A DNA stretch of 64,000 bases from Sphingomonas sp. LM7. GTDB lineage: Bacteria > Pseudomonadota > Alphaproteobacteria > Sphingomonadales > Sphingomonadaceae. Position numbers and translations under genes: made by a program. The stretch spans positions 2,666,001-2,730,000 of the forward strand of contig NZ_CP019511.1 in assembly GCF_002002925.1 (NCBI RefSeq), given 5' to 3'. Positions 10,491 to 20,106 of this stretch are shown here, piece by piece. The number at the start of each line of letters is the position of its first letter. Within the stretch, counting starts at the first letter, position 1. Below the pieces are notes generated by a model that was given only the letters and a program-made list of their open reading frames with translations, had not been told where the DNA came from and did no database searches.

Positions 10491-10546
10491 CGACGCCTGC
10501 TCCGGCTCCATGTCGCTTTGTTGTTTCGGAGCGGCGTGCCGGCCCC

Positions 10547-10571: not shown

Positions 10572-11561
10572 ATGGGTATTTTCGATTTTCTTTCGAACCA
10601 GTTCGTCGATGTCATCGATTGGGTCGACGAGCCCGGCACGCTCGCGATCCGCTATCCGATGGAAAATCGTGAGATCCAGAACGGCGCGCAGCTGACCGTG
10701 CGCGCGGGCCAGACCGCGCTCTTTTATAACGAAGGCGAGCTCGCCGACGCCTTCGTTCCCGGCCTCTACACGCTCGAGACCGGAAATCTGCCCGTGCTCA
10801 CCGCGGTGATGAACTGGGACAAGGGCTTCAATTCCCCCTTCAAGGCCGATGTCTATTTCTTCAGCCAGAAGGAGCAGACCGGGCTCAAATGGGGCACGCA
10901 GCAGCCGATCACGGTGCGCGACAAGGAGTTCGGCCCGTTACGCGTCCGCGCGTTCGGCTCCTATTCGTTCAGCGTCGAGAGCGTGTCGACCTTCGCGATC
11001 AAGATGATGGGCTCGCTGGAAAAACTGACCATCGCCGATCTCGAGCCGCAGTTGCGCGGCGCGATTGCCACCGCGATCGCCTCGGCGCTCGGCACCGGCG
11101 AAATCGCATTCCTCGACCTTGCCGCGAACCAGACTGCGCTGTCCGAGAAGCTCAAGGCCGCAGTCGAGCCCGCCTTTGCGCAATGGGGGCTGAGCTGCAC
11201 CAGCTTCTTCATCGAGAGCCTGTCGCTGCCCGAGGAGGTCCAGGCGCATCTCGACAAGGCGAGCTCGATGCGCGTCGTCGGCGACCTCGACCGTTTCGTC
11301 CGCTTCCAGAGCGCGCAGGCGATCGAGACTGCGGCGGGGCAGTCGGGCGGCGTCGCGGGTGCCGGCGCGGGCATGGCCGCCGGCATGGCGATCGGCCAGA
11401 GCATGGCCGGCGGCATCGGCGCCCCGGCGGCACCTGCCGCCGCGCCGGGCGAGGACGCCTATGCCCAGATCGAAAAGCTCCACAAACTGGTGACGATCGG
11501 CGCGATCACCCAGGAGGAGTTCGACGCCAAGAAGGCCGAGCTGCTGGGCCGCATCCGCTGA
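10572..11561 (+). CDS. SPFH-domain protein with C-terminal SHOCT domain
   Basis: 329 residues from MGIFDFLSNQFVDVIDW; the start is fixed by the ribosome binding site GGAGG just upstream. The N-terminal 240 residues match the YdjI-like 'virion core protein' branch of the SPFH (stomatin/prohibitin/flotillin) superfamily, with DEPGTLAIRYPMEN and VRAFGSYSFSVE. A Gly/Ala-rich linker (about 255-295) leads to a SHOCT motif, AQIEKLHKLVTIGAITQEEF. It has no membrane helix. In Bacillus, YdjI helps localise PspA at the membrane (known from the family). Here it heads the polyamine cluster and its stop is only five bases from the next ATG. Confidence 0.9.
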   Translation: MGIFDFLSNQFVDVIDWVDEPGTLAIRYPMENREIQNGAQLTVRAGQTALFYNEGELADAFVPGLYTLETGNLPVLTAVMNWDKGFNSPFKADVYFFSQKEQTGLKWGTQQPITVRDKEFGPLRVRAFGSYSFSVESVSTFAIKMMGSLEKLTIADLEPQLRGAIATAIASALGTGEIAFLDLAANQTALSEKLKAAVEPAFAQWGLSCTSFFIESLSLPEEVQAHLDKASSMRVVGDLDRFVRFQSAQAIETAAGQSGGVAGAGAGMAAGMAIGQSMAGGIGAPAAPAAAPGEDAYAQIEKLHKLVTIGAITQEEFDAKKAELLGRIR

Positions 11562-11565
11562 ACGC

Positions 11566-12240
11566 ATGAGCCTGCACCTCCCCTGCCCCAATTGCGGCGC
11601 GGACGTCGTGTTCCGCTCGCCGGCATTGCCCAACCGCGTCTGCGACTATTGCCGATCGATGCTGGTGCGCAGCGATGCCGGCGTGGCCAGGGTCGGCGAA
11701 GTCGCGGCGCTGCCCTTCGACGTCAGCCCGGTCCGGATCGGCATGCGCGGCACTGCCGATGGCAAGCGCTTCGAAGTCATCGGCCGCGTCCGCTGGGCGT
11801 GGACCGACGGCGCGTGGAACGAATGGCTGCTGCTGTTCGAAGACGGGAGCAATGCCTGGCTCGGCGAGGCGATGGGCCAGTTCATGCTGCTTTGGGAGCA
11901 GCCGATCGGCAAGGTACGCTCGCGAATGCTGCGCGAAATCCTGAACGGTAGGGATGCAGTACCGGGCACGGAAGTGCAGCTCGACAATCAGAAGCTGGTC
12001 ATCGCCGATGCGCGCGACGTGACGTGCATCGCCGCCGAGGGCGAGCTGCCCTTCACCGCCACGAGCGGATGGAAGCTTTACAGCGTCGATCTGCGCGGTC
12101 GCGGCGGCGAATGCGCGACGCTCCAGCGCGACGGCGCCGAGACGAGCTTCTATCAGGGCCGCTATGTGACGCTCGCCGAGCTTGCCCCACGCGGGCTGCG
12201 CGCAATCGAAGGCTGGGCGCTCCCCCCTTATGCAGCCTGA
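11566..12240 (+). CDS. DUF4178 protein with N-terminal zinc ribbon (paralogue 1)
   Basis: 224 residues. CPNCGADV and VCDYCRS (about residues 6-29) form a CxxC...CxxC zinc ribbon. The rest is the DUF4178 beta-rich domain, with GRVRWAWTDGAWNEWLLLFEDGSNAWLGEAMG, similar to the second gene's EEYLLFNPYHGYRWLVKV. There is no membrane helix. The function of DUF4178 is unknown; it is repeatedly found beside DUF350 and spermidine-synthase genes (recalled from comparative genomics). It is translationally coupled to its neighbours: five bases after the SPFH stop, and overlapping the next start by 11 bases. Confidence 0.88.
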   Translation: MSLHLPCPNCGADVVFRSPALPNRVCDYCRSMLVRSDAGVARVGEVAALPFDVSPVRIGMRGTADGKRFEVIGRVRWAWTDGAWNEWLLLFEDGSNAWLGEAMGQFMLLWEQPIGKVRSRMLREILNGRDAVPGTEVQLDNQKLVIADARDVTCIAAEGELPFTATSGWKLYSVDLRGRGGECATLQRDGAETSFYQGRYVTLAELAPRGLRAIEGWALPPYAA

Positions 12241-13567
12241 GCCCGTGGCCCCGCCCGCCCCCGCGGCGCGCGCGCTGACCTGCCCGTCGTGTGGCGGCGG
12301 CGTCGAGCTGCGCGCGGCGGGCTACACCGTCCATGTCGCGTGCCAATATTGCGGCTCGATCCTCGACGTCACCGATCCGCAGGTGAAGCTGGTCACGCAA
12401 TACTACCAGCAGGCCGCCGCGCTCGAGATCTCGCTCGGCACCCGCGGCGTGCTGCGCGGTGTCGAATGGGAAGCGATCGGCTATCTCCAGCGCTCCGAGA
12501 ACGGCGCCTATGGCTGGGAAGAATATCTGCTGTTCAATCCCTATCACGGCTATCGCTGGCTGGTGAAGGTGCGCGGCGGCTGGAGCCTGGGCGAGGCGCT
12601 CACGGTCACGCCCGATTGGGTGTCCTACGATACGCTGCGGATCGGCGGCGAGTTCGTCACGCATTTCTTCGGCGATGGCGAGGCGCAGGTCGATTACGTC
12701 CTCGGCGAATTCTATTGGCGCGTCGCGGTCGGCGAGCGCGTCCAGACCGACGACTGGGTCCGCCCCGGCGTGATGCTGTCTCGCGAGAAGAACGCCAACG
12801 AAGTCAGCTGGACGCGGAGCGAGCTGCTGCCCGCGAAGGAGATGCAGAAGGCGTTCGGCGTCGAACCCGAGGGAAAGATCTGGCCGCCGCTGCCGCACCA
12901 GCCCTCGCCCTATGGCAATTGGCTCAAGACCGGATTCGCGATCGCGATTGCTGCGGTGGTTTTCCTGCTGGCGTTCGCGCTCCAGTTCGGCGGCACGCAA
13001 TGGTCGGCCGCGGGCACCTTTCCGATTACCGCCGATGGGCGCGAGCAGAGCGTGACGCTTGGCCCGATCAACCTGCTGCGCCGTTACCAGAGCGTGCACC
13101 TCCGCGCCGATGTGCCGCGGCTGGAGAATGGCTGGGTCGATCTCGATTACAGCCTCGTCGATCGCACGACCCAACAGGTCTATCAGGCCTATGGCGCCGC
13201 CGAGCGCTATTCCGGCTATGATTCGGATGGCTCCTGGACCGAGGGCTCCCGTCGATCGAGCGTCTCGATCGCCAGCGTGCCGACCGGCAGCTACGATCTC
13301 GTCGTCGACTATAAGGGCAATCGCTGGAGCGGTGCGAGCGGCGGTTCTAGTAGCGATCCAGGCTGGATGGACTCAGCGAACCAGCCCGAAGTGAAAGTCG
13401 AGATTCGCCAGGGCGCGCTCTATGCCTCGAACCTGCTGCTCGCACTGAGCCTGATCGTATTGCCGCTGCTGTTTGCGCTGATCGCGCACACCAGCTTCGA
13501 AACCGCACGCAAAAACGAGAGCGACTTCGCTCCCTCAGGCGACGATGACGAGGAGGACGACGAATGA
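12230..13567 (+). CDS. DUF4178 protein with zinc ribbon and membrane anchors (paralogue 2)
   Basis: 445 residues from MQPEPVAPPAPAAR, the ATG overlapping the previous stop; longer in-frame starts lie inside the previous gene. It has a zinc ribbon (LTCPSCGGGVEL...CQYCGSI, about residues 18-43), then a DUF4178 domain (to about 220), a membrane helix (about 245-262, FAIAIAAVVFLLAFALQF), an extracytoplasmic domain, and a second helix near 410-430 (LLLALSLIVLPLLFALIA). It ends in an acidic tail (DDDEEDDE). This would place the ribbon and DUF4178 part in the cytoplasm and the middle domain outside. It looks like paralogue 1 plus a membrane module. Confidence 0.88.
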   Translation: MQPEPVAPPAPAARALTCPSCGGGVELRAAGYTVHVACQYCGSILDVTDPQVKLVTQYYQQAAALEISLGTRGVLRGVEWEAIGYLQRSENGAYGWEEYLLFNPYHGYRWLVKVRGGWSLGEALTVTPDWVSYDTLRIGGEFVTHFFGDGEAQVDYVLGEFYWRVAVGERVQTDDWVRPGVMLSREKNANEVSWTRSELLPAKEMQKAFGVEPEGKIWPPLPHQPSPYGNWLKTGFAIAIAAVVFLLAFALQFGGTQWSAAGTFPITADGREQSVTLGPINLLRRYQSVHLRADVPRLENGWVDLDYSLVDRTTQQVYQAYGAAERYSGYDSDGSWTEGSRRSSVSIASVPTGSYDLVVDYKGNRWSGASGGSSSDPGWMDSANQPEVKVEIRQGALYASNLLLALSLIVLPLLFALIAHTSFETARKNESDFAPSGDDDEEDDE

Positions 13568-13713
13568 GCACGCGCACCTTTCTTTACGCGCTCTGGTGCC
13601 TCGGTGTGGCGGGACTGTTCATGCTGGGCAGCGTCTTCGCCTGGTCGCCCTTCGCCGAAGGCAGCCGCGCACGCCCCGTTACCGGCGTGTTCGTCGGCCC
13701 CACACACAAATAG
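13564..13713 (+). CDS. 49-residue membrane peptide in the polyamine cluster
   Basis: The ATG overlaps the previous stop (GAATGA), and the frame reads MSTRTFLYALWCLGVAGLFM followed by LGSVFAWSPFAEG and ends VTGVFVGPTHK. It has one hydrophobic helix (about 6-27). The stop is ten bases from the next ATG, with AGGAGG between. Tight coupling on both sides and GC-rich codon use argue that it is real. In related clusters a small protein often sits beside DUF350. I assign no function. Confidence 0.7.
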   Translation: MSTRTFLYALWCLGVAGLFMLGSVFAWSPFAEGSRARPVTGVFVGPTHK

Positions 13714-13723
13714 GAGGAACGAT

Positions 13724-13936
13724 ATGGTGACCAGCCTGCCTGCCGTGCTCAGCACGCTGCTTTATTCGGCGATCGGCATCGTCGTGTTCGTGATCGGCTT
13801 CGTGGTGCTCGACTTGCTCACCCCCGGGAAATTGTGGGAAGAAATCGGGCAAAAGCAGAATGTTGCGGTGGCGATCTTCGCCGGTGCCGGCGCGATCGGG
13901 CTCGCGATCATCGTCGCCGCCGCGATACATGGCTGA
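13724..13936 (+). CDS. DUF350 (YjfL-like) membrane protein
   Basis: 70 residues from MVTSLPAVLSTLL, preceded by AGGAGGAACGAT. Two membrane helices are visible (IGIVVFVIGFVVLDLL and VAVAIFAGAGAIGLAIIVAAAI), joined by the conserved LTPGKLWEEIGQKQNVAVAI. This is one repeat of the DUF350 domain, the short form. DUF350 proteins are inner-membrane proteins of unknown function, linked by gene neighbourhood to PspA-like proteins, spermidine synthases and SpeD. The stop overlaps the start of the synthase gene. Confidence 0.9.
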   Translation: MVTSLPAVLSTLLYSAIGIVVFVIGFVVLDLLTPGKLWEEIGQKQNVAVAIFAGAGAIGLAIIVAAAIHG

Positions 13937-15476
13937 AGCCGACCCCGTACGACCCAAGCCCAGAGCGTCCGCACCCGCCGCGGCGCTGCTTGCGTCCGCC
14001 TTCGTCGTATCGACCTGCGGGCTGATCTACGAGCTGCTCGCGAGCACGCTGGCGAGCTATCTGCTTGGCGACAGCGTCACCCAATTCTCCACCGTCATCG
14101 GCAGCTATCTGTTCGCAATGGGCGTGGGGAGCTGGTGCTCACGCTATGTCCGGAAGGACGAGCTGCGGCTGTTCGTCCGCGTCGAGCTGCTGATCGCCTT
14201 GCTTGGTGGCTGCTCGGCGGCGGCGCTGTTCCTGCTCTTCCCGGTGGTCGACCATTTCCGGGTGGCACTCTACGGCCTCGTCCTCGCGATCGGCTTCCTC
14301 GTCGGGCTCGAAATCCCGCTGCTGATCCGCATCCTGCGCGGCTTCGACTTCCGCGAGACCGTGTCGAACGTCCTCACCTTCGACTATGTCGGCGCGCTGG
14401 TCGCGTCGCTGCTCTTCCCGCTGCTGCTGATGCCGCATCTCGGCATGATCCGCACCGGCTTCCTGTTCGGCATCTTCAATGCCGCGGTAGCTCTCGCCGT
14501 GCTGTTCGCGCTGCCGCGGACTGCGCGGTATCGCAGCGAGAAGGTGGCGTCGCTGCTCGTGCTGCTCGTGCTCGGCGCCGGCTTCGTCGCGTCGGACCGG
14601 CTCCAGCGCTGGGCCGAAGTCGCGAGCTATGGCGAGCCAGTGATCTATGCCACCAGCACCAAATTCCAGCGCATCGTCCTTACGCGGCGTGACGACGATG
14701 TCCGGCTGTACCTCAACGGCAACCTCCAATTCTCGTCGCGCGACGAATATCGCTATCACGAGGCGCTGGTGCATCCCGCGCTCGGCCGCGTCGCCAACCC
14801 GCGCAACGTGCTGATCATGGGCGGCGGCGACGGGCTCGCAGCGCGCGAAGTGCTCAAGAACAAGGCGGTGCAGCGCCTGACGCTGGTCGACCTCGATGGC
14901 GAGATGACCAGCCTGTTTTCGCGCACCGCGATGCTGTCCAAGCTCAACGGAGGCTCGCTCACCGATCTGCGGATGACGGTGATCAATGCCGACGGCTTCC
15001 GCTGGGCGCGCGAGGCAGCCCAGAATGGACTTGAGGGCAAATACGACGCGATCATCGTCGATTTTCCCGATCCGGTCGATTATTCGGTTGGCAAGCTCTA
15101 CACCGAAACCTTCTACCGCGCCGCGCGGAAGCTGCTCGCGCCGGGCGGGATGATGGCGATCCAGAGCACCTCGCCGCTGGTCGCGCCGCGCGCATACTGG
15201 ACCGTCGCGACGACACTCGAAGCCGCCGGGCTCCAGACCCGCGGCTACCACGTCTATGTGCCGAGCTTCGGCGAATGGGGCTTCTTCCTCGCCGCCAACG
15301 GCCCGATCCCGCAGCAGGCAAATATCCCGCCCGGCCGCTTCCTCACTGCGACGATCGACCAAAGGCTGTTCGATTTCCCGCCCGACATGGCGCGGCGGCC
15401 AACCTCGGTGAACCGGCTCGACAACCAGGTGCTGGTCCGCGAGTTCGCCGACGCCTGGGACAAATATGAAGGCTGA
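13929..15476 (+). CDS. Membrane-fused spermidine synthase-like aminopropyltransferase
   Basis: 515 residues from MAEADPVRPKPRA. About seven hydrophobic helices fill residues 20-230. The C-terminal half is a spermidine-synthase fold: nucleotide-binding MGGGDGLAAREV (about 295), acidic LVDLDGEM that binds the aminopropyl donor, and DFPDPVDYSVGKLYTETFY with the catalytic Asp. LYLNGNLQFSSRDEYRYHE is also typical. It should transfer aminopropyl from decarboxylated AdoMet to an amine acceptor, on the cytoplasmic face. The membrane-fused type is not a general housekeeping SpeE. Its stop overlaps the start of the oxidase gene. Confidence 0.9.
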   Translation: MAEADPVRPKPRASAPAAALLASAFVVSTCGLIYELLASTLASYLLGDSVTQFSTVIGSYLFAMGVGSWCSRYVRKDELRLFVRVELLIALLGGCSAAALFLLFPVVDHFRVALYGLVLAIGFLVGLEIPLLIRILRGFDFRETVSNVLTFDYVGALVASLLFPLLLMPHLGMIRTGFLFGIFNAAVALAVLFALPRTARYRSEKVASLLVLLVLGAGFVASDRLQRWAEVASYGEPVIYATSTKFQRIVLTRRDDDVRLYLNGNLQFSSRDEYRYHEALVHPALGRVANPRNVLIMGGGDGLAAREVLKNKAVQRLTLVDLDGEMTSLFSRTAMLSKLNGGSLTDLRMTVINADGFRWAREAAQNGLEGKYDAIIVDFPDPVDYSVGKLYTETFYRAARKLLAPGGMMAIQSTSPLVAPRAYWTVATTLEAAGLQTRGYHVYVPSFGEWGFFLAANGPIPQQANIPPGRFLTATIDQRLFDFPPDMARRPTSVNRLDNQVLVREFADAWDKYEG

Positions 15477-17073
15477 CCGCCGCACCCTGCTCGGCCTGGG
15501 CGCCGCCGCAGTTGCTGCGGGCGGGGGCGGGCTGGCCTATGCGCTGGGGCATGCCGCACCGTTGCCCGAAGGTACGCTAGCGGGGGCCGACATAGCGCGC
15601 GGGCACCGGCTGCGCGATGGCAATTTCCCAGCGCCCAGCCGACAGGAAGAAGTCGATCTGGTCATCGCCGGCGGGGGCGTCGCCGGGCTTTCGGCAGGCT
15701 GGCGGATGGCCGATGCGGGGTTCGATCGTTTTCGGTTGCTCGAGCTGGAAGACAGCGTCGGCGGCAATGCCCGCAGCGGCCGCAACGCGGTTTCCGCCTA
15801 TCCGCTCGGCGCACATTATCTGCCGGTCGCCAACCAGGAAGCGAAGGCGCTCCAGCATCTGCTGCGCCAGCTCGGGATGATCACCGGCGACAGGGACGGC
15901 GTGCCGGTCTACGACTCCGAACAGCTCTGCGCCGATCTGCAGGAGCGTTTCTTCTGGCAGGGCCGCTGGCAGGAAGGGCTGATCCCGCGCACTGGCATCA
16001 CCGCGCGGGACCGTCAGGATCTCGCCGCGTTCGAAGCGGCGATGGCCGACTTCTCCAGCCATGTCGGCACCGACGGCAAGCCCGCCTTCGCGGTGCCGAT
16101 AGCGTACAGTTCGCGCGACGCCGATTTGACCGCGCTCGATACGCTGAGCTTCGCCGCCTGGCTCGATCAGCAGGGCTGGCGCTCGCCCGTGCTGCGCGCG
16201 CACGTCCGCTATGCGATGCGCGACGATTACGGCACCGAGCCGGACGAGGTCTCGGCCTGGGCGGGCATTCACTATTTCGCCGGCCGGCGCGGCTGGGCCG
16301 TCGAGGGTGGCGACAACGAGCTCACCTGGCCCGAAGGCAATGGCCGGCTGGCACAACAGCTCGCCGGCTTCTTCCCTGATCGTATTGCGCCGGGGCGGAT
16401 CGTCCACCGCGTGGCGCGCGAGGGGCAGCGCGTACTGGTCGACAGCTTCGACGTCGCCGCCAACGCCACCATCCGCACCAGCGCACGCGCCGCGATCCTG
16501 GCGATGCCGCATTTCATTGCGGCCCGGGTGTGCGGCGAGATCGGCGAGGCTTCGGCATTCAGCTATGCGCCCTGGCTGGTCGCCAATGTGACGGTCGATC
16601 GCCTGCCAGGCGGGCGCGGCGTACCGCTCGCCTGGGACAATGTGTCGAGCACCAGCGAATCGCTCGGGTATGTCGTCGCGACGCACCAGGGGCTCGATGC
16701 CGCGCACACCGGGACCGTGCTGACCTGGTATCTGCCGCTATCGACGATGCCGCCCGCCCAGGCGCGGCGGCTGCTGGTCGAGCGCCCGGCCGAGGAGTGG
16801 AAGCGCATCGTACGCGATGATCTGCTGGCGATGCATCCCGAGCTCGATAGCGCGATCACGCGGATCGACCTGTGGCGCTGGGGACATGCGATGGCGCGCC
16901 CAACGCCGGGTTTCCTGTGGCGCGGCGAGGCGATCGCGCCCAAGCCGCCGCTGTTCCTCGCCCATTCCGATCTCAGCGGCCTGTCGCTGTTCGAGGAAGC
17001 CCAGTATCACGGCGTCCGCGCCGCCGAGGCGGCGATGACGCTGCTCGGTCATGACCATGCGAGCCTGTTGTGA
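15466..17073 (+). CDS. FAD-dependent amine-oxidase-like protein with Tat-type signal
   Basis: 535 residues. MKADRRTLLGLGAAAVAAGG has a twin-arginine (RR-x-L-L) signal, predicting export of a folded flavoprotein. The FAD-binding motif is VIAGGGVAGLSAGWRMADAG (about residues 65-85), followed by ELEDSVGGNARSG. Later come GRRGWAVEGGDNELTWPEGNG and PLFLAHSDLSGLSLFEEAQY, as in amine oxidases and phytoene-desaturase-like enzymes. It may oxidise the polyamine product made by its neighbours. The location inference depends on the Tat motif. It overlaps the synthase gene by 11 bases and speD by four. Confidence 0.87.
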   Translation: MKADRRTLLGLGAAAVAAGGGGLAYALGHAAPLPEGTLAGADIARGHRLRDGNFPAPSRQEEVDLVIAGGGVAGLSAGWRMADAGFDRFRLLELEDSVGGNARSGRNAVSAYPLGAHYLPVANQEAKALQHLLRQLGMITGDRDGVPVYDSEQLCADLQERFFWQGRWQEGLIPRTGITARDRQDLAAFEAAMADFSSHVGTDGKPAFAVPIAYSSRDADLTALDTLSFAAWLDQQGWRSPVLRAHVRYAMRDDYGTEPDEVSAWAGIHYFAGRRGWAVEGGDNELTWPEGNGRLAQQLAGFFPDRIAPGRIVHRVAREGQRVLVDSFDVAANATIRTSARAAILAMPHFIAARVCGEIGEASAFSYAPWLVANVTVDRLPGGRGVPLAWDNVSSTSESLGYVVATHQGLDAAHTGTVLTWYLPLSTMPPAQARRLLVERPAEEWKRIVRDDLLAMHPELDSAITRIDLWRWGHAMARPTPGFLWRGEAIAPKPPLFLAHSDLSGLSLFEEAQYHGVRAAEAAMTLLGHDHASLL

Positions 17074-17423
17074 GCGAAGCGTATCGCGGCCATCACTTGA
17101 TCGCCGACCTGCATGAGGCGGCGCATCTGACCGACGTCGCGCATATCGAGCGCTGCCTGATCGACGCCGCCGCCGCGGCCGGCGCGACCCTGCTCGACGT
17201 GCGGCTCCACAGCTTCGGCCCCGGCCAGGGCGTGACCGGCATGGCGATGCTCGCAGAATCGCACATCTCGATCCACACCTGGCCCGAATATGGCAGTGCG
17301 TGCGTCGATCTTTTCCTGTGCGGGCGCCGCCACGACCTCGACGCCGCGCTCGATACGATCGTCGCGCGGCTGGAAGCGCGGGTGGCCAAACGCACGCTGC
17401 TGACGCGGGATCTGGGGAGCTAA
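17070..17423 (+). CDS. speD: S-adenosylmethionine decarboxylase proenzyme
   Basis: 117 residues from a GTG start overlapping the previous stop (TTGTGAGCG). It makes decarboxylated AdoMet, the aminopropyl donor for the synthase upstream. The self-cleavage site is ESHISIHTWPE with Ser64, the processing His69, and the catalytic Cys84 in DLFLCGR. All match the class 1 bacterial enzyme, whose precursor cleaves before the serine to form a pyruvoyl group. The length is normal for this class. It is the last gene of the cluster; a strong hairpin begins three bases after its stop. Confidence 0.95.
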   Translation: MSEAYRGHHLIADLHEAAHLTDVAHIERCLIDAAAAAGATLLDVRLHSFGPGQGVTGMAMLAESHISIHTWPEYGSACVDLFLCGRRHDLDAALDTIVARLEARVAKRTLLTRDLGS

Positions 17424-17425
17424 TC

Positions 17426-17552
17426 CCCTCTCCCGTCGGGAGAGGGTTGCGCAGACTTGGCCCGCTTCTTCGGCAGGCCCTAGTCGGAGCTGGGTGAGGG
17501 GATCGCACTATCGAGAGCGGAAAACCCTCACCTAGCTCCCGCAGGGAGAGGA
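17426..17552 (+). repeat. Paired palindromic repeat / terminator after speD
   Basis: CCCTCTCCCGTCGGGAGAGG at 17426-17445 is a near-perfect hairpin. GGAGCTGGGTGAGGG (17486-17500) and CCCTCACCTAGCTCC (17525-17539) form an inverted pair with one mismatch, and CTCCCGCAGGGAG closes the element. It lies between two convergent genes and probably terminates both transcripts. Confidence 0.75.
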
Positions 17553-17553
17553 A

Positions 17554-20106
17554 TTAGGGAGCTTCCCCAGCCACCGGCGGCGCAGGCCGCGCCAGGAATC
17601 GGCTATAGGCCCAGCTGATCCCGATCAGCACCACGCCCAATGCAAGGAACGACAGGATGCGCAGCACCCCGTCGAGCGCGGCGGCGTCGACCAGGAACAC
17701 CTTGAACGTCACCAGCGTCAACAGCGCAAGCCCGGCGATGCGCAGGTCATAGACGCTCGCGGTGATCCCGCGCCACAGCCAGAACAGCGCCACGCCGAGC
17801 AGAACCGCCGAATAGCCGCCATTCTCCAAGGTGCTGATCGGCCCGGTGAGCACCGTCCCATGCGTCGCCTGGCGCACCGCGACCAGCGCTGCCGCGATGG
17901 TGAGCAATGCCGCGCCGGCGCGCACCGCGGGCGCCTTGTGCAGCGTCCACAGCCAGAAGGCGGCCAGCGCGGCGTGGAGCGTCGCCGCATTGAGCAACGG
18001 GAACGGCCCGACCTGTTGCGGCACGATCGCGGGGTTGAGCAGCAGCAGATCGAACCATATCAGCCGCACCAGTCCGAGCCCGAACAGCACCACCGCGAGC
18101 GACGGCAAGCGGCCGCTGCGCAGCAGATACCAGCCCGAAGCAAGACATGCCTGGGTGAGCAGCAAGCGCTCGACAAAGCCCAGCGCGAAGAAGCGCTCGG
18201 GCGCGCCGATCGCGAGCGCCTGCTTGGCGAGCGCATAGATCAGCAGGATGCCCACGCCGATTGCGACGCTGCCGACGAAGCGCCGCGCGCGACCAAGCTG
18301 GCGCGGATCGAGCATTGCTCCGAGCAGCGCCGCGGTCGGCAGCGCCAGCGCGCGGAACAGGTCTGGCAGCGGCGGGATGCGCAGCCAGGGCAGCCGGTCC
18401 CCTGCCAGCGACGTCGAGATCAATTCGATCAGCCCGGCCAGCGGCATTGCGGCAGCGACGAGCGCGGCAAGGTATGGCAGCGCCGGGAGTACGAACAGCG
18501 AAGGCGCCTTTGCCAGCCGCGCCCAGGCGGCAAGGCCGAGCAGGACCAGCGCAAGCGGCACGCCGAGCCAGGCATCGGGCAGGAACTGCGCGAGCCCCCA
18601 TGCCGCGAGCAGACCGGCGAACAGGCTCGCCGCGGTCAGGATCGGATCGTCGGTCTCGCGCTTGTGCCGCCAGGCGAGATGTCCAGCGCCCGCAGCCGCG
18701 AGCAGGTCCAGCAAGCCCCAGATCTCCGCCGCGAGCAGCGACGGCGCACAGAGCTGCGCGACCAGCAGCGGTCCCGCGGTGCCGCCCAGCGCAAGCGCCG
18801 CCCAGCCGCGTCCGCGCGCCGCGAGCACATGGCCGGGCACGGCGAACAGCAACGTCGCGATCAGCGCCGCGATCGGCGTGGCGGCGCGTTCGGGTTGGAG
18901 CAGCGCCAGCACTTCGAGCGCCAGCAGGAAGCCCAGCGCGGCCAGCGCGGCGGGCAAGTAGATCGCCTGGCGCCATGACAGGAACAGCGCCGCAGCGGCG
19001 AGCACTAGGTAGAAGCTCCAGGCGAGCGCGCCGAAATCAAGCGACGGCGCCAGCGCCAGCAGCTGGACGAACCCGGCGACCAGTGGGGCGAGCCGCAACA
19101 ACGGATTGCGCGTGCCGGTGGCGGGCAACGCCGCGCTGGCGCAGGCGGCGAGCAGCATCGTGAATGCGCCGACCGCCGACAAATCCGCTTCGCGCCCGGC
19201 CAGCGCAAAGATCAGGAAGTTGATCCAGCCGAACCCGGCGATGCTCGCGGCGAGCGCCAGCCAGCCCCAGCCGCGATGGATCGCCAGCCCGAACAGCGCA
19301 GAGATGAACAGCGCCAGATAGACGAGCAGCGGCGCGATCCCCGCGGCGTCGAACCCGGCGACGAGCGGCGCGACGAACCCGCCGATCAGCGCCATCACTG
19401 CGGTGGGCGGACCATGGCGCAGCGCCAGCCCCATCGCCGCGGCGGTGACCAACACGACCAAGACGAAGGCAGTAAGCGGCGCGATCAAATGATAGAGCGC
19501 CGCCGCCATGTAGAGCGTGCCATAGAGGCTGGCGATGCCGGCGCCGGCAAGCACCTGCGCCACGCGCGGATCTTCTGCCGTGGCGGGGAAGCGGCGCGCG
19601 GCTTCGCTGGCGGCGATCAGCGCGACGCCGAACAAGGCGGCGAGGAAGGTGCGCGTGCCAGGGCCGAGCAGCCCGCTCTCGATCGAATAGCGCACGAGGA
19701 AGAAGCCGGCGAGGACCAGCGCGGCGCCGCCGATCCAGATCGGCAGCCGTCCGCCGATCAGCGATTCGAGATTGAGCGGCGGGCGCGGCGGCGCCTCGAC
19801 CGGGGCAGTCCGTATCGGCGCCGGCAGGGCATCGGCAGCGCGGGCGCGGATACGCTCGGCCGCGACGACGCGTGCCGGCGTCCGGACTTCCTCGCGAAAA
19901 GGCTCGGCGATGCCGGGTGCCTCCTGAGGAGCGCTATCGGCTGCGGCGGAAACCGGTTGCGCAGTCATCCGTGTTTGGCGATCTTCGAGCCGCTCGACGA
20001 GTGACTCGACGCGGCGCAACTCCTGTTCCACAACAGTCAGGCGCCGCAGGACCACGAAGAAGGCCGCGGCGACACCAAGGGCGAGCAGGAGCGTGAAGAG
20101 CGTCAC
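17554..20106 (-). CDS. DUF2339 polytopic membrane protein
   Basis: 850 residues. An N-terminal helix (LLLALGVAAAFFVVLRRL) is followed by a short coiled coil (VEQELRRVESLVERLEDRQ), a Pro-rich linker with NLESLIGGRLPIWIGGAALV, and then more than 20 hydrophobic segments to the end. This is the DUF2339 architecture, a large inner-membrane protein of unknown function found in many proteobacteria. It is convergent with the polyamine cluster and separated by the repeat, so it is not in that operon. Alternative roles such as transport or envelope maintenance are guesses. Confidence 0.9.
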   Translation of the reverse strand: MTLFTLLLALGVAAAFFVVLRRLTVVEQELRRVESLVERLEDRQTRMTAQPVSAAADSAPQEAPGIAEPFREEVRTPARVVAAERIRARAADALPAPIRTAPVEAPPRPPLNLESLIGGRLPIWIGGAALVLAGFFLVRYSIESGLLGPGTRTFLAALFGVALIAASEAARRFPATAEDPRVAQVLAGAGIASLYGTLYMAAALYHLIAPLTAFVLVVLVTAAAMGLALRHGPPTAVMALIGGFVAPLVAGFDAAGIAPLLVYLALFISALFGLAIHRGWGWLALAASIAGFGWINFLIFALAGREADLSAVGAFTMLLAACASAALPATGTRNPLLRLAPLVAGFVQLLALAPSLDFGALAWSFYLVLAAAALFLSWRQAIYLPAALAALGFLLALEVLALLQPERAATPIAALIATLLFAVPGHVLAARGRGWAALALGGTAGPLLVAQLCAPSLLAAEIWGLLDLLAAAGAGHLAWRHKRETDDPILTAASLFAGLLAAWGLAQFLPDAWLGVPLALVLLGLAAWARLAKAPSLFVLPALPYLAALVAAAMPLAGLIELISTSLAGDRLPWLRIPPLPDLFRALALPTAALLGAMLDPRQLGRARRFVGSVAIGVGILLIYALAKQALAIGAPERFFALGFVERLLLTQACLASGWYLLRSGRLPSLAVVLFGLGLVRLIWFDLLLLNPAIVPQQVGPFPLLNAATLHAALAAFWLWTLHKAPAVRAGAALLTIAAALVAVRQATHGTVLTGPISTLENGGYSAVLLGVALFWLWRGITASVYDLRIAGLALLTLVTFKVFLVDAAALDGVLRILSFLALGVVLIGISWAYSRFLARPAPPVAGEAP

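Follow-up and report, generated by a model that had tools for sequence, protein, structure and literature searches.

Which amine does a membrane-bound aminopropyltransferase modify when its gene is paired with that of an S-adenosylmethionine (AdoMet) decarboxylase? The question of the acceptor dates from a report that pairs of membrane SpeE and AdoMet decarboxylase (AdoMetDC) take no part in spermidine synthesis, and Li et al. 2019 (Biochem J) are said to have found SpeD with a membrane-SpeE fusion uninvolved in that synthesis, with DUF350 nearby, and to have left the acceptor unknown. It is raised again by an eight-gene cluster at positions 10572-17423 (strand +) of the window, by which we mean the whole stretch of 64,000 nucleotides analyzed here from the one-contig, 4.16 Mb genome of Sphingomonas sp. 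LM7. In order, the cluster encodes an SPFH-SHOCT protein, two DUF4178 proteins (DUF4178-a and DUF4178-b), a protein of 49 amino acids (aa), a half-length DUF350 protein, membrane SpeE, a flavin adenine dinucleotide (FAD) amine oxidase and SpeD.

An earlier note on this DNA listed the 49-aa gene without comment, and we found it to be the most informative of the eight. Its product carries a hydrophobic segment in its N-terminal part and terminates in ...GPTHK, and a Pfam scan of it gave no family over cut-off. We propose, at a probability of roughly 0.55, that SpeE aminopropylates the C-terminal lysine of this tail with decarboxylated AdoMet (dcAdoMet) made by SpeD, and that the cluster would be a dedicated protein-modification system and no free-polyamine pathway. 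The features at the center of this proposal are the following, with positions counted in the window.

13564..13713, strand +: 49-aa membrane-anchored tail protein ending GPTHK, the proposed aminopropyl acceptor (sequence)
13708..13710, strand +: AAA codon of the C-terminal Lys49, the proposed modification site (sequence)
13929..15476, strand +: membrane SpeE, 515 aa, seven hydrophobic segments and an aminopropyltransferase domain (NF002956, 645.8 bits; hydropathy, alignments)
17070..17423, strand +: SpeD, predicted AdoMet decarboxylase class 1b, 117 aa, GTG start (TIGR03330, 107.4 bits, cut-off 75.65)

A lysine-ending tail upstream of membrane SpeE

We defined a tail as an open reading frame (ORF) with a hydrophobic segment and the end [HG]K, GR[VI]K or SGK, lying on the same strand within 2.2 kb upstream of membrane SpeE, and looked for it in 154 loci (31 + 40 + 80 + 3, with the window excluded from the count), to which a genome scan supplied the best 80 of at least 587 confirmed stretches. 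A tail conforming to this rule was present in 136/154 loci (140 such ends among 468 ORFs; two of the ends, the second ones in L239 and L240, look like chance), compared with 2/154 loci in a downstream control of equal length (2 of 356 ORFs) and 0/154 loci on the opposite strand (0 of 453 ORFs). The full 2.2 kb upstream was covered in 145 loci, and 130 of them had the tail. There are near-duplicates among the loci; when 151 SpeE proteins (L336-L338 left out) were grouped by single linkage, the tail was found in 117/134 clusters at 90% identity and 56/64 at 70%. A laxer look at the 18 misses, taking in whole loci and both strands, turned up the tail in ten more.

The lysine is constant in sets that were not selected by it. 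The orthologue of the 49-aa protein ends HK in 25/25 genus loci. In 107 loci DUF4178 is followed by DUF350, and 84 of these gave a separate gene between them at a strict hydrophobicity cut-off; ORFs chosen in this way by position and hydrophobicity end in K in 82/84 cases, and in the two exceptions an ORF in the wrong frame had been taken next to a lysine-ending one. The remaining 23 loci comprise six DUF4178 fusions ending in K and 17 that fell below the cut-off and have a lysine tail by the rule or the laxer look. Homologues sought without using the last three residues have K at their end in 17/17, 4/4 and 120/120 cases, the last being those listed of 968 and the latter two sets including the query's own record. 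Plasmid loci with a full-length membrane SpeE, fetched after the rule had been fixed, carried a lysine-ending tail in 6/6 cases, three found by script, two from annotated genes and one (NRVK, outside the rule) by eye; these were six of 12 records at 80% coverage or more, the others being of the same genera, and a seventh record (L345) is a partial match. Among the other ORFs of the cluster the last residue is K in 1/151 SpeE, 0/135 DUF350, 2/111 FAD oxidase, 2/101 SpeD, 3/69 SPFH and, fusions included, 15/198 DUF4178 sequences, and in 46/46 ORFs matching a model of the 49-aa protein.

A histidine precedes the lysine in 75/82 tails, as might be expected of a recognition motif. This suits an alternative in which the tail serves for docking, sorting or regulation and the aminopropyl groups really go to a membrane lipid or some other envelope amine. 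The tail might, for example, fill the SpeE pocket as a pseudo-substrate or recruit DUF350 or SPFH. A lipid acceptor would suit a membrane-bound transferase, and "aminopropylation of other substrates" is left open in the main text of Ravi et al. 2024 (mSystems, PMC11237479). However, the histidine can be replaced by G, V or I, and by Q in one homologue, yet the lysine does not vary in the sets picked without reference to it, and docking would not need the exact C-terminal position. We consider this alternative doubtful, though the likeliest of those weighed here. Our locus maps covered the eight cluster families.

Forms of the tail

The tail occurs as a separate small gene, as a larger lipoprotein or as the C-terminus of DUF4178, in loci that span Proteobacteria, Bacteroidota, Verrucomicrobia, Acidobacteria and others. 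Genes at the equivalent position in named loci of Bacteroidota, Verrucomicrobia, Acidobacteria and Leptospiraceae and in other loci end ...YHK, ...FHK, ...SHK, ...NHK or ...GGK. Nine loci, of which three are named Burkholderiales, have a DUF4178 extended by a hydrophobic segment and by a Gly/Ser tail with the end ...GGSHK, ...GGGHK or ...GGAHK, and L338 resembles such a fusion and is a putative one. In loci containing genes that resemble PspA by eye, the ends ...GGK, ...RGK or ...SGK are found on a lipoprotein or membrane protein adjoining SpeE or DUF350. Among 120 relatives of one larger tail protein, 106 carry a lipobox-like motif. Comparing the tails by blastp (E 1e-3) after trimming their final three residues gave 30 groups; since most tails are shorter than 100 residues, this argues only weakly for separate origins. 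Positive charge is greater on the N-flank of the tail than on its C-flank in 51/82 cases, equal in 25 and less in 6.

Two unusual arrangements were seen. In an Alteromonas mediterranea plasmid (L343, 5926-12584) the genes for SpeE and SpeD are accompanied by a hypothetical gene, one for "toxic anion resistance", DUF4178, a gene for a 510-aa protein with a lipobox-like start and a lysine end, and DUF350. In Solitalea (L217, 6034-13151) two DUF4178-tail-DUF350 sets stand in tandem, both with tails ending YYHK.

Tails beside peptide-spermidine ligases

The E. coli DUF1190 proteins YjfM and YgiB, both of which end GG, adjoin YjfC and YgiC, which RefSeq names peptide-spermidine ligases and which were reportedly described as such by Pederick et al. 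2023. In a sample of 60 DUF1190 loci (from 67 matches) the tail never ends in K: 48 tails end in G, 10 in S and 2 in T. An ATP-grasp relative of YgiC/YjfC lies in 55/60 of these stretches and membrane SpeE in 0/60. The end of the tail thus appears to fit the chemistry of its neighbor, with small residues beside a ligase that would use a carboxylate and lysine beside a transferase that would need an amine, which we put forward as a functional parallel only. DUF1190 (PF06693) had no match in the 49-aa protein or in the window genome. We also considered the larger lysine-tailed proteins as DUF1190 members and rejected this, as PF06693 was unmatched in the five examined (P0024, L093, L176, L191 and L343).

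Enzymes and the proposed reaction

Membrane SpeE scores 645.8 bits over its full length against the NF002956 model, polyamine aminopropyltransferase (PRK03612), which has a cut-off of 472. The earlier note had claimed that SpeD and SpeE keep their catalytic residues, and these were found where it quoted them: in alignments SpeE retains GGGDG, LVDLD and DFPDP, and S64, H69 and C84 of SpeD align with the T. maritima enzyme. Across 44 SpeE sequences Y276, H277, E278, D323, D378 and D381 are invariant and D301 is nearly so. Model score and catalytic residues together support the prediction of SpeD as an AdoMet decarboxylase of class 1b.

By our reading, the averaged hydropathy profile of SpeE gives seven hydrophobic segments, in line with the "7TM" of Ravi et al. 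2024. In the same 44 sequences the loops placed inside carry on average 1.5 (N-terminus), 2.4, 3.5 and 2.6 Lys+Arg, those placed outside carry 0.2, 0.8 and 0.9, and the stretch past segment 7 has 1.3 Lys+Arg and 2.2 Asp+Glu. By the charge rule, which can mislead, this suggests that the catalytic domain faces outward. The bias would place the reaction outside the cytoplasm, and the SpeE domain, the tail and the oxidase may all be extracytoplasmic, with SpeD and dcAdoMet in the cytoplasm.

We propose the following course of events. SpeD would make dcAdoMet in the cytoplasm, and membrane SpeE would place one or more aminopropyl groups from it onto the epsilon-amine of Lys49, turning the flexible, membrane-tethered tail into a polyamine-ended arm. 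Where its gene is present, the FAD amine oxidase, which has an export signal, might cleave or oxidize the resulting secondary amine as an eraser or processing step, and the SPFH, DUF4178 and DUF350 proteins might organize the complex in the membrane. The fuller version, in which a polyamine is built on the tail lysine, possibly at the outer face of the inner membrane, dcAdoMet is made solely for it and the exported oxidase is its eraser, seems to us a little short of an even chance.

A loose twin-arginine motif occurs in 90/110 relatives of the FAD oxidase. Such an exported flavoprotein in the same operon could also be thought to act on the tail directly, in the manner of a lysyl oxidase, with SpeE in a separate role. 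However, a FAD relative was not found in the stretch covered for 35/134 tail loci, and L088 and L089 keep the lysine tail without one. We conclude that SpeE is the constant partner of the tail, and direct action of the FAD protein on the tail is very improbable.

Distribution and ordinary polyamine synthesis

Membrane SpeE (NF002956 over cut-off) was found in 26/121 genomes of the genus, 3/59 of the family, 6/289 of the class and 44/398 of the phylum. SpeD and DUF4178 matches occur in exactly the same 26/121 genus genomes and in 0/95 of the others, and all eight genes stand in the same order in 23/25 other genus loci; the remaining two (L072 and L076) are cut by contig ends and retain the part that fits. 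This neighborhood survey bears out the earlier note's claim that the eight genes behave as one unit. None of 31 related loci gave a match at E 1e-20 to the three flanking genes compared from the window, one of these genes having two weak matches (E 1e-8 and 5e-6); therefore the cluster occupies different genomic places. Elsewhere in the genus, 36 cluster-negative genomes have a DUF350 match near full length, compared with the half-length form in the cluster.

Could SpeD and SpeE instead make spermidine or an aminopropylated homospermidine in the ordinary way, with the other genes exporting or sensing the product? The NCBIfam equivalog name of SpeE, "polyamine aminopropyltransferase", and its retained acidic residues agree with this. 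So does the distribution of a DHS-like homospermidine synthase (PF01916), which has a match in 106/121 genus genomes: the match is missing from 7/26 cluster-positive and 8/95 cluster-negative genomes (p 0.019, with no correction for relatedness of the genomes), and in genomes lacking it the cluster might contribute to synthesis of the main polyamine. The window genome, however, has the DHS-like synthase and a single SpeD match, and among the 121 genus genomes SpeD is found only where the cluster is, being missing from 95. Ordinary synthesis would also leave the lysine tail unexplained. A 2025 paper (PMC12803844), in a statement citing Li et al. 2019, gives the bacterial homologues of a fungal membrane-aminopropyltransferase fusion as uninvolved in spermidine or spermine synthesis. 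On this published statement and the genus distribution we set spermidine biosynthesis aside as the main role and judge ordinary polyamine synthesis improbable. The earlier note expected the pair to make an aminopropylated amine; as a kind of product this agrees with our proposal, but a free polyamine is unlikely in light of the statement in PMC12803844.

Other candidate enzymes were examined. A 222-aa SpeE-like protein in L003, the window genome's only other one over the Pfam cut-off, lacks the GGGDG and DxxDP motifs and was rejected as a second partner; a third match is weaker (21.3 bits). The 222-aa gene (G000:C1:2797728-2798111; L003 1363-2031, strand -) lies by eye between portal-like and terminase-like genes. 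The SpeE model had some match in 44/59 family genomes and passed the cut-off in 3 only. Homospermidine synthase was also sought through PF03435, and the three of five matches inspected by eye seem unrelated, the DHS-like PF01916 protein being the likelier enzyme.

Points against lysine aminopropylation

Several observations weigh against our proposal that SpeE modifies the tail lysine. An outward-facing SpeE domain would require cytoplasmic dcAdoMet to cross the membrane, and we know of no precedent for such a crossing. The lysine at the C-terminus could serve as a signal for docking or sorting. The end rule was fixed after many tails had been viewed, the laxer look also yielded two ends that we judged to be chance (L157 and L227), and eight of the 154 loci (L157, L166, L186, L189, L224, L227, L231 and L269) have no convincing tail, with L227 alone among them starting right at a contig edge. 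The FAD oxidase resembles solved amine oxidases weakly, with a best E of 5e-4. The DUF1190 contrast sets unrelated proteins side by side, and it is we who infer that YgiB and YjfM are substrates of the ligases.

Other features of the locus

Eight co-directional genes separated by overlaps or by gaps of ten bases or less had been described at 10572-17423, and the ORF coordinates agree; in gene order the junctions are a gap of 4, overlaps of 11 and 4, a gap of 10 and overlaps of 8, 11 and 4. The features not yet given are these.

10572..11561, strand +: SPFH/band-7 protein with C-terminal SHOCT, 329 aa (PF13421, Band_7_1, E 1.1e-72; PF09851, E 1.5e-7)
11566..12240, strand +: DUF4178 protein a, 224 aa, four-Cys zinc-ribbon-like N-terminus (PF13785, E 2.1e-13)
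12230..13567, strand +: DUF4178 protein b, 445 aa, zinc-ribbon-like N-terminus, two hydrophobic segments, acidic C-terminus (PF13785, E 9.9e-12)
13724..13936, strand +: half-length DUF350 membrane protein, 70 aa (PF03994, E 2.1e-16, Pfam positions 5-66 of 133)
15466..17073, strand +: FAD amine oxidase, 535 aa, Tat-like N-terminal signal (PF01593, E 7.7e-18)

The SPFH gene has an alternative start, TTG at 10518. The zinc ribbon of DUF4178-a was read from its residues, Pfam zinc-ribbon matches being under cut-off, and the hydrophobic segments of DUF4178-b were identified by eye. No transmembrane segment was seen by eye in DUF4178-a, which does not bear out the description of these accessory proteins as all membrane-linked. 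A sigma-70 promoter search found none and was uninformative. An inverted repeat of the type ccctctcccg...cgggagaggg was seen by eye at window 17426-17560, between convergent genes, and a similar element lies at L003 1219-1350.

Comparison with known systems

The gene content of the cluster is largely published already, and the locus probably belongs to an operon family that is for the most part in the literature. The main text of Ravi et al. 2024 (PMC11237479) describes two operon groups of interest here. One contains a "novel lipoprotein (Ctha_1186)" together with DUF350, DUF4178 and a seven-transmembrane-spermidine-synthase fusion. The other includes a variant with band-7, two transmembrane segments and SHOCT in the place of the PspA dyad, along with AdoMet decarboxylase and polyamine oxidase. 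An actinobacterial DUF4247 type is also named. Set beside these PSP-linked operons, the window unites features of both groups: band-7, SHOCT, DUF350, SpeD and the oxidase are present, and there is no PspA among the eight genes. That the set has neither PspA nor ATP-grasp, as the earlier note had pointed out, is correct for the eight genes, and the replacement of the PspA dyad by band-7/SHOCT was already in print (PMC11237479). The note's suggestion of a membrane-stress or envelope-polyamine system stands in part and is close to the proposal existing in that paper.

The words "lysine" and "small protein" are absent from the main text of Ravi et al. 2024 (PMC11237479), and the lysine end, the DUF4178 fusion and the Gly/Ser contrast, all features of the present loci, are undiscussed there. 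A search of the open-access literature, with subscription papers and supplementary tables outside its reach, found no role for the 49-aa gene, and as far as it shows the lysine tail, its fusions and the Gly/Ser contrast are unreported. Compared with the AdoMetDC and membrane-spermidine-synthase fusion attributed to Li et al. 2019, what is added here is a specific acceptor proposed for the window cluster, and the conserved C-terminal lysine on a co-encoded tail gives a testable acceptor for membrane-SpeE/AdoMetDC pairs. SpeD and SpeE annotations in such genomes need not imply spermidine.

Like the E. coli YgiC and YjfC gene sets, the window cluster would place a polyamine enzyme beside an anchored protein with a Ser/Gly-rich tail, and DUF350 and PspA are neighbors in the yjf set. 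Unlike those sets, which have an ATP-grasp ligase and tails ending GG, it has an aminopropyltransferase, a tail ending in lysine and no ATP-grasp gene among its eight. Residues that bear polyamines on proteins are described in PMC12029483 for eukaryotic systems, namely hypusine, sponge aculeines and the lysines of diatom silaffins; these resemble our proposal in putting polyamine chemistry on protein residues, and none of them involves a C-terminal lysine on a membrane tail in bacteria. If the proposal is true, the cluster would carry out in bacteria a protein modification akin to hypusine or to the polyamination of silaffins, and would link polyamine chemistry to the envelope. It would also be an alkylating counterpart of the peptide-spermidine ligases, and bacteria would have two unrelated routes to polyamine-ended envelope proteins.

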